Program-made: the position numbers and the translations under genes | The notes under the pieces: generated by a model | Databases searched by the model: none | What the model saw: only the letters and a program-made list of their open reading frames with translations | Told to the model about the DNA's origin: nothing | Assembly: GCA_947484535.1 (NCBI GenBank) | Contig: CANKPO010000023.1 | Location: 1 to 10,771 of the forward strand | Length of the DNA: 10,771 nt | Reading direction: 5' to 3' | DNA from: Caulobacteraceae bacterium | GTDB lineage: Bacteria > Pseudomonadota > Alphaproteobacteria > Caulobacterales > Caulobacteraceae | Part shown: in pieces, positions 2,229-4,430 of the stretch | Position numbering within the stretch: position 1 is the stretch's first letter | Layout: every line of letters begins with the position of its first letter

Positions 2229-2320
2229 CCGTTTCCCCCGCGAAGGCGGGGGTCCAGAAACGTCTAGAACGGACCGTCGGCGGGCCCTTATCTGGATCCC
2301 CGCCTGCGCGGGGAAGGTGG
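2229..2320. repeat. Dispersed palindromic repeat element, copy 1 (92 bp)
   Basis: This 92-bp element is about 89% identical (82 of 92 positions by eye, no gaps) to the copy at 2637-2728, in the same orientation. Its two ends form a long imperfect inverted repeat of about 31 bp per arm. Each arm also contains its own small hairpin: CCCCGC, a 4-base loop, GCGGGG. The centre, about 30 bp, is not palindromic and is well conserved between copies, with a TCTAGA and GGACCGTCGG. Similar GC-rich palindromes are common between genes in alphaproteobacterial chromosomes. The element starts 34 bp after the rimM stop and ends 10 bp before the GIY-YIG stop codon, so its hairpins could also stop transcription or protect mRNA ends from both sides. 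Confidence 0.9.
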
Positions 2321-2330
2321 AAGGGGGGCG

Positions 2331-2615
2331 TTAGGGCTCAAGCCTCAGGGCCAGATCGTCCCAGTTGGGATTGTCCATCTCGATCAGGGCTATCTTCCAA
2401 TCCCGGTTCCATTTTTTCATGCGCCGCTCGGTGGTCAGCGCGGACTCTCGACTGTCATGGGCTTCGAACCAGACGAGGATCTTGGTATTGTGTCTCGCGG
2501 TGAAACCGGGAACCGCTCGGCTCTGGTGTTCAAAAACCCTGCGATTAAGATTGTCCGTCTGGCCAATATAGAGGGTACCGTTGCGCCCTGACGCCATGAT
2601 GTAGACGTAGAACAT
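2331..2615 (-). CDS. Small GIY-YIG nuclease domain protein
   Basis: The 94-residue product is a single-domain member of the GIY-YIG superfamily (the small URI/YhbQ-like type). Visible signatures are YVYIM (3-7) and LYIG (15-18), which form the name-giving pair of strands. They are followed by the basic RRVFEHQ helix (25-31, with the conserved Arg and His), and TTERRMKKW (61-69), where Glu63 should be the metal-binding Glu. The ending WKIALIEMDNPNWDDL is typical. The start at 2615 is required because the first catalytic strand begins at residue 3; its ribosome binding site is poor, with GGAG touching the ATG and a G-rich stretch farther up. GIY-YIG enzymes cut DNA, but the substrate of this small family is largely unknown. 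The gene is tightly bracketed by two copies of a 92-bp palindromic repeat (10 and 21 bp away), which suggests mobility or a role at these palindromes. The domain is certain; the role is not. Confidence 0.93.
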   Translation of the reverse strand: MFYVYIMASGRNGTLYIGQTDNLNRRVFEHQSRAVPGFTARHNTKILVWFEAHDSRESALTTERRMKKWNRDWKIALIEMDNPNWDDLALRLEP

Positions 2616-2636
2616 CTCCGCCCACCCCCCTTTCTA

Positions 2637-2728
2637 CCGTCTCCCCCGCGAAGGCGGGGGTCCAGACGCGTCTAGAACGGACCGTCGGTAGGCCCTTGTC
2701 TGGGTCCCCGCCTTCGCGGGGAAGACGG
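2637..2728. repeat. Dispersed palindromic repeat element, copy 2 (92 bp)
   Basis: This is the better preserved copy. Its arms, 2637-2667 and 2698-2728, match as an inverted repeat at 28 of 31 positions. Two of the three exceptions are G-T pairs, so an RNA copy would pair at 30 of 31. The ends are exactly complementary (CCGTCT and AGACGG). Each arm carries an internal hairpin with core CCCCGCGAAGGCGGGG, so the element can fold as one long stem or as two short hairpins. I see no convincing target-site duplication. It sits between the start of the GIY-YIG gene and the end of tesB, where it could also act as a terminator for tesB. Confidence 0.9.
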
Positions 2729-3749: not shown

Positions 3750-4430
3750 ATGCGTCTGTCGAATGTCATAAAGATCATTGGTACGGGTGTGGTGGTCTTG
3801 GCCGTCAGCGGCTGTGGGGTCGCGCGGAATGTGTCCCTGCAGTCTGATCGGATCGGCGCGGCACCGGCGGCTGGCCTGGCCTATGGCTTGGCCAAGTCGC
3901 AACTGGGTGGTGAGGAGAAATATGTCTTGGCTGCTGGAGCGCTGGCCTATGGGCTGGTTGAAAGCCGCTCCAACGGGACCGAATGTGACATCATCGCGGC
4001 AACCCTCTCCCACAAGCCTTTGGGACTGTCGCTAAGGCGCCTACGCACCGACGTGAAAAAGCGTGGCGGGCCACTGATGAGCCTCAAATTTCCGAGCCTG
4101 ACCGACGAGGAGCAGAACGACCTCGACGAGGCCAAACTGCGCAAACAGTCCAATAGCTTTTCCATCAAGTGTCATTGGAAAAAGCTAGGCTTTAAGGATG
4201 TCCCGGCCATGACCGATGGGTCGTCCTATAGTTTCATTGGTCGGCCGGTCATTTCCGCAAAAGGCGATTTGGCTGTGGTTGGAGTCGGCAAGGTGGGTCT
4301 CGAACGCCCCAGAGCCCTCGCGCTCGATCCAACCTTCAACCCCACGGTCGGAGAGGGTCAGTTCTGTCTCTTGCGCCGCTCGGCCAAGGGCTGGGCGGTC
4401 GAGACCTGTCGTACGACTTGGGCATTGTAG
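3750..4430 (+). CDS. Predicted lipoprotein of unknown function
   Basis: I do not recognise this 226-residue protein. It begins with a short basic stretch (MRLSNVIK), a hydrophobic core ([10 protein letters not shown]) and a lipobox VSGC, so Cys22 is the probable lipidation site and the protein should be membrane-anchored facing the periplasm. Residue +2 is Gly, not Asp. Residues 37-50 and 59-72 form an internal near-repeat ([11 protein letters not shown] and [13 protein letters not shown]), two Gly/Ala-rich hydrophobic segments separated by a charged turn. The rest has a charged middle (about 97-147) and a beta-type C-terminal part ending in [20 protein letters not shown]. Cysteines at 79, 141, 206 and 220 could form disulfides. 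GGGA precedes the ATG by five bases. The gene is 49 bp upstream of trmD and in the same direction, so it probably shares, and may supply, the transcript for trmD-rplS. Lipoprotein status is likely; the function is open. Confidence 0.85.

Follow-up and report, generated by a model that had tools for sequence, protein, structure and literature searches.

The repeats closest to those described here are the CGTC-tagged REPs (Di Nocera 2013, PMC3733652). According to the accessible part of that paper, they carry a tag, CGTC (or TGTC or CCTC), at one end, a stem of 7-9 bp starting with AT, a loop of 4-5 nt and a CCA tail. They occur mostly as inverted dimers with short spacers, are centred on alphaproteobacteria, with C. 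crescentus among the positive species, and include dRS3 of Neisseria and RPE-4 and RPE-6 of Rickettsia. The paper describes them as lacking a dedicated transposase and found no other dedicated enzyme for them, and the word 'GIY' is absent from its text.

The window analysed here is a stretch of 10,771 nucleotides from the draft genome of a Caulobacteraceae bacterium. A gene for a small GIY-YIG nuclease lies in it between two REP pairs, designated E1 and E2:

2229..2321, plus strand: E1, a REP pair of two inverted hairpins round a spacer
2237-2256 (plus) and 2293-2312 (minus): REP pattern matches of E1, with degenerate tags (CCGTT and CACCT)
2331..2615, minus strand: GIY-YIG nuclease gene (94 aa), an ORF with a match to PF01541
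2637..2729, plus strand: E2, a REP pair in the same orientation as E1
2645-2664 (plus) and 2701-2720 (minus): REP pattern matches of E2, with CCGTC at both outer tags

A mechanical repeat search gave direct repeats at 2229-2321 and 2637-2729 that are 93 nt long and 89% identical, with a start-to-start distance of 408, and the gaps between these elements and the gene are 9 and 21 bp. The layout of the original prediction, a GIY-YIG gene between two elements of the same orientation and 89% identity, was retained, and its sizes were corrected from 92 to 93 bp for the elements and from 10 and 21 bp to 9 and 21 bp for the gaps. Two REP hairpins in inverted orientation, with the tags outward and the CCA tails inward, make up each element. 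The hairpins have a GC stem of 7-8 bp, which does not start with AT, and a loop of 4. The arms of E2 (2637-2667 and 2698-2728) are 90% complementary, and folding of E1 and E2 as single-stranded DNA gave z values of -4.9 and -6.8, respectively, against shuffled sequences. A search of Rfam gave no match. The proposed search of the source genome (1.77 Mb, 64% complete) was productive, giving at least 72 BLAST matches to the element with both strands summed, a lower bound because 40 of 50 candidates were scored. Seven distinct places, two of them in the window, match at least 80 of the 93 element positions, and most others are single hairpins. The same genome contains a second, distant GIY-YIG match (L002, G000:C11:3919-4086; 41% over 54 residues).

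The bracketed block sits between rimM and tesB, both of which are intact. The interval between rimM and trmD also contains tesB (minus strand) and an ORF at 3750-4430. No GIY homologue was found in the relative G065, where one stretch likewise contains rimM, tesB and trmD, with tesB between the other two. The claim that the block interrupts a conserved operon was therefore overstated; the GIY-YIG block alone does not interrupt the rimM-trmD operon. The start of ORF 3750-4430 is apparently lipoprotein-like. The ORF at 1064-1597, presumably ribosomal protein S16 from its position before rimM, has a C-terminal part (1403-1597) that forms an Ala/Glu-rich tail of 15-nt repeats.

The window protein belongs to the GIY-YIG nuclease superfamily. 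It matches PF01541 with an E value of 8.9e-15, and it contains Y5, Y16, G18, R26, H30, E63 and N82, which are invariant across 30 homologues and which we take to have a catalytic role in GIY-YIG nucleases. Among the 120 homologues listed out of 625 (E ≤ 0.001), those with a name in the databases are called 'putative endonuclease' or 'GIY-YIG nuclease family protein'. Its AlphaFold model, of high confidence with a mean pLDDT of 95, predicts a stand-alone single domain of 94 aa. The nearest solved fold is 1zg2 (UPF0213 BH0048; E 2.5e-4), followed by Slx1 chains (E about 0.02), and the identity of these top matches over the aligned part is 24-31%. In the accessible part of the literature, Slx1 is described as cleaving branched DNA (PMC6902002) and as partnering with Slx4 in eukaryotes. 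Because the predicted fold is close to that of this branched-DNA nuclease, hairpin or cruciform DNA is a reasonable candidate for the substrate of the GIY-YIG protein.

The association of GIY-YIG genes with flanking repeats was examined across genomes, using as controls the other ORFs of the same loci, which were mechanical ORFs and not annotated genes. The Caulobacteraceae set of 93 loci consisted of the window, its 29 best matches in other genomes, 60 further loci taken in descending order from the listed matches with some skipped, together with three named loci that are duplicates of L111-L113. Short flanks led to the omission of some loci from the shared-repeat test (1/93 in Caulobacteraceae and 4/75 in other taxa) and from the hairpin test (3/93 and 5/75). 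When the 200 bp before and the 200 bp after each gene were compared (score of at least 20), shared repeats flanked 49/92 GIY genes of Caulobacteraceae, or 46/89 without the three duplicate loci, versus 1/251 control ORFs. The corresponding values in other named taxa were 37/71 GIY homologues versus 11/755 control ORFs. A class-wide search gave 23/29 loci with flank-shared repeats; these loci are not a random draw because they were supplied for the best-scoring genomes, one of which was again from Caulobacteraceae.

In the hairpin test, a stem of at least 7, a loop of 3-6 and a CCA tail were sought within 150 bp of each gene. Such a hairpin was present on either side of 73/90 GIY genes versus 12/279 control ORFs in Caulobacteraceae, and on both sides of 34/90 versus 0/279. 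For control ORFs flanked on each side by noncoding DNA, the values were 4/54 for a hairpin on either side and 0/54 for both sides, and for the small members of this group 2/16 and 0/16, respectively. In other taxa, the values were 29/70 versus 35/842 for either side and 14/70 versus 3/842 for both sides; intergenic-flanked controls gave 17/225 and 2/225, and small noncoding-flanked controls had no both-sided hairpin (0/59). The contrast between GIY genes and control ORFs is large, the counts being descriptive ratios because orthologous loci are not independent. The several kinds of control ORFs argue against chance clutter of intergenic DNA as its cause. Enrichment of the element beside GIY-YIG homologues relative to other genes, which the original prediction had proposed to count, was strongly positive in the family, the class and other phyla, and the association of the GIY-YIG gene with REPs is general and in our view settled.

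The commonest REP-bearing layout, seen at 27/168 loci, is REP-gene-REP with the tails inward, so that the gene forms the spacer of a REP pair. The window layout, with the gene between two REP pairs, was found at 8/168 loci (seven without a duplicate), and no hairpin of the sought type occurred within 220 bp at 56/168 loci. Constant outer ends (CCGCTC...GAGCGG) were present in 16 of 24 hand-chosen units, which form 17 groups by homologous neighbours. Terminal inverted repeats thus bound a unit at several sites, as in insertion sequences; no consistent target-site duplication was seen by eye round the 24 units. Many REP copies of Caulobacteraceae have GCTCA in place of the CGTC tag. A genome contains few copies of the GIY gene, most of them diverged, and synteny between species is seen at many loci.

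L182 and L186 have homologous neighbours and, relative to these, a REP-GIY-REP unit in opposite orientation, as would follow from inversion or separate insertion. One Nitrospira MAG (Nitrospira lenta) holds two REP-GIY-REP copies, L052 and L070, whose genes are 98% identical. Both copies lie inside a larger unit with the outer inverted ends GGGTCTTCTCCC.../...GGAGAAGACCC, and the upstream REP of L070 is split by a further hairpin. At the flavobacterial loci L044, L055, L058, L060, L069, L071 and L073, an AT-rich palindrome with arms of about 16-21 bp, located 36-135 nt upstream of the GIY gene, replaces the GC-rich REP. The neighbours of the flavobacterial loci are syntenic in many pairs, and a rough motif search in these loci found few further palindrome copies.

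One REP pattern, which covers part of the REP diversity, was counted in 199 Caulobacteraceae genomes; REP places were the first ones per genome among the matches listed, and the reversed pattern gave at most two matches per strand. Genomes were scored as having the gene at E ≤ 0.001, a group that includes seven weak genomes reassigned in the strict analysis. At least ten REP matches were present in 78/128 genomes with the gene versus 8/71 without it (medians 14 versus 0), and the observed value was reached in none of 20000 trials in which the gene label was shuffled within genera. Part of this contrast is trivial because each gene brings its flanking REPs. With strict calls and two REPs deducted per gene copy, the values were 58/121 versus 13/78 (Fisher 5e-6; within-genus permutation 17/10000), and with the gene-free genus g14 also removed they were 58/121 versus 13/53 (Fisher 4e-3; permutation 13/10000). 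The contrast therefore shrinks after removal of the flanking REPs and of g14. Besides the eight REP-rich genomes without the gene, the exceptions include 13/128 genomes that have the gene and at most one REP match. In 230 alphaproteobacterial genomes, at least ten matches were found in 19/86 with the gene versus 3/144 without it, or 17/84 versus 3/144 without two Caulobacteraceae. The sole two pattern matches in the genome of G114 flank its GIY gene. Within the genus of the window, G036 and G065, which have no GIY match, contain 15 and 24 REP matches, and the other five members contain 48 to 130; one of these five, G048, has weak GIY matches only.

As a negative control, PF01797, the Y1 transposase family that contains the known REP enzymes, was counted in the same 199 genomes. 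It was present in 32 of them and showed no relation to REP number, with at least ten REP matches in 14/32 versus 72/167 genomes (permutation 6744/20000). No PF01797 match was found in the 64% complete draft genome G000, from which the window comes. These results argue against a tyrosine transposase as the true REP partner in Caulobacteraceae genomes.

The distance between GIY proteins was correlated with the distance between their REPs (Spearman 0.73; 0/2000 permutations) across 105 loci with a nearby REP. For the 72 Caulobacteraceae loci the correlation was 0.62; shuffling REPs within the same genus gave 0.11 on average, and 0/3000 shuffles reached 0.62. In addition, 14 comparisons, which are not independent of each other, set the REP of a gene against those of its nearest homologue from another genus and of a paralogue from the same genome. 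It was nearer to the former in 10, equally near to both in two and nearer to the latter in two. By these distances, the GIY protein and its flanking REP co-diversify beyond the host genus.

Gene-bearing and gene-free versions of one site were also compared. A single REP pair separates rimM and tesB in G065, and in G036 degenerate hairpins lie between them. The proposed comparison of siblings at this site did yield gene-free relatives (G065 and G036), and it gave no clean empty site for the window unit among G065, G036 and G048, the last of which has no tesB match. Repeats at this locus in relatives that lack the gene had been named as a point against the idea, and this holds in part, the element being at the locus in G065. 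It does not undo the association because REPs occur at many gene-free places, and it is compatible with the gene having been gained or lost at a REP pair.

Two further sites were compared in genus g2. The odhB-lpd gap contains a REP-GIY-REP unit in 5/30 loci (L268, L269, L272, L273 and L287); the GIY gene of L269 has two in-frame stops, and that of its close relative L268 is open. L270, whose lpd is 97% identical to that of its close relative L268, instead has another gene and a hybrid REP pair that begins at the same point. The dnaN-recF gap contains the GIY gene in 9/30 loci of g2 (dnaN in reach in 27), with outer tags on both sides in 7/9 units, and in 1/30 loci of g22 (dnaN in reach in 11); in one g2 locus this gap is merely 13 bp. 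In g2, the dnaN-recF gap (L208-L267) and the odhB-lpd gap (L268-L297) hold many small inserts of different kinds, among them GIY units, GGCGAGT-type repeats and further ORFs. Both gaps are insertion hotspots, and the comparison at them is only partly clean for this reason. The loci with and without the gene at rimM-tesB, odhB-lpd and dnaN-recF indicate insertion-like behaviour of the unit, and show that a REP pair and a REP-GIY-REP unit can alternate at one site.

The best reading of these data is a REPIN/RAYT-like system based on an unrelated GIY-YIG nuclease whose conserved residues are intact. The REP-like layout with an unrelated nuclease fold, as originally predicted, is supported by the locus comparisons and also by the genome-level association, which was absent for the tyrosine-transposase control. 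The small GIY-YIG nuclease is probably the dedicated partner of the CGTC-type REP family, as RAYT (TnpAREP) is of the GTAG-tagged REPs, and the recurrent pairing suggests that it accounts for the spread of a widespread bacterial repeat family whose partner had been missing. We infer that the protein binds, cuts and mobilises REPs; mobilisation by this enzyme is the best single explanation, and an unproven one. Several observations count against this reading: the 56/168 loci at which no hairpin of the sought type was found, the exceptional genomes in both directions (8/71 and 13/128), the smaller contrast once flanking REPs and g14 are taken out, the lack of a consistent target-site duplication, and the small number and divergence of the gene copies, many of whose loci are syntenic. 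The commonest bracketed unit would be a short element whose ends are inverted REP hairpins and whose spacer is the nuclease gene, and REP pairs without a gene would be its non-autonomous form. The enzyme would recognise the REP hairpin, as single-stranded or cruciform DNA, together with its tag and tail, and nick there; repair of the break could then copy or insert a REP pair at a new place, and in rare cases the entire unit. The wider proposal, to which we give even chances, is that CGTC-type REPs of many phyla owe their mobilisation to small GIY-YIG nucleases, the enzymes so far missing for them, with REP pairs as gene-less miniatures of hairpin-ended REP-GIY-REP elements, and that this arrangement originated independently of the HUH-based REP/RAYT system.

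GIY-YIG homing endonucleases are a known class, and a serious rival, though in our estimate an unlikely one, is a selfish, homing-type cassette formed by the GIY-YIG gene, for which pre-existing REPs are landing sites. Such a gene would cut REP pairs and be copied into them by homologous repair between REPs, and the REPs would then surround the gene without owing their spread to it. The gene-free REP pair at rimM-tesB of G065, the hybrid form at odhB-lpd of L270 and the REP-rich genomes without a detected gene are consistent with this. Homing alone, however, leaves the lower REP number of gene-free genomes unexplained, as it does the co-diversification of protein and REP within genera, part of which recognition of landing sites would cover. 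A selfish gene that also spread its landing sites would be intermediate between a homing gene and a dedicated partner.

A role in genome maintenance, in which the protein would trim hairpins or cruciforms of REPs or resolve them, and would stay beside REPs for expression or regulation, would agree with the second-closest fold, that of the branched-DNA nuclease Slx1. We consider this improbable, since it does not explain the constant REP ends beside unrelated neighbours, the alternation with gene-free REP pairs or the decay of the copy in L269, a close relative. Passive co-location, in which small accessory genes and REPs both gather in intergenic DNA and insertion hotspots, draws on the varied inserts of the dnaN-recF and odhB-lpd gaps of g2. 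It is very improbable in view of the noncoding-flanked controls, which had both-sided hairpins in 0/54 and 2/225 cases versus 34/90 and 14/70 for GIY genes. Mobilisation by a dedicated GIY-YIG partner names a specific candidate for the CGTC-type REPs, which were previously without a known enzyme. How these repeats arose, spread and are kept up can thereby be tested with a single small protein and a hairpin about 30 nt long. Should the proposal be true, unrelated nucleases have been recruited by hairpin repeats at least twice.

Among the matches listed from the open-access PMC literature, no report linking GIY-YIG proteins to REPs was found, in agreement with the original statement that such a partnership with palindromes is not an established system. 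Likewise, no mention of the link was found in the accessible parts of a 2006 GIY-YIG survey (PMC1564403), a 2018 HUH enzyme survey (PMC6006769) and a 2025 REP survey (PMC12306157). The window gene resembles those of GIY-YIG homing endonucleases in being a small GIY-YIG gene that looks like an insertion, and differs from them in standing alone between REPs and not in an intron. The closest solved folds of its product are UPF0213 and Slx1-type GIY-YIG nucleases, but the link to REPs sets it apart from both, for neither of which a REP link was found in the literature searched.

Compared with the CGTC-tagged REPs, the window elements are likewise hairpins with a loop of 4 and a CCA tail arranged as inverted dimers, but their fit is looser, with CCGTC tags present on E2 alone and no AT at the start of the stem. 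The repeats that flank GIY genes in other phyla fit closely, for example CGTC-ATTCCCGCGAAAGCGGGAAT-CCA. The tags beside GIY homologues of other taxa are CGTC or TGTC, and the stem, loop, tail and dimer arrangement of this family are all found in several. Close fits occur at loci titled Nitrospira, Sulfuritalea, Deltaproteobacteria, Zixiibacteriota and Chloroflexota, and also Rifleibacterium, Campylobacteraceae, Lysobacter and Stagnimonas, single labels that need care because most are MAGs. As in the REPIN/RAYT system (TnpAREP), according to the accessible parts of PMC3116915 and PMC6006769, the nuclease gene is flanked by REPs that are also dispersed in the genome, REP pairs are the dispersed form, the copy number of the gene is low and the REP types are lineage-specific. 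Unlike that system, the enzyme of the window is a GIY-YIG nuclease and not an HUH tyrosine transposase (Y1_Tnp).
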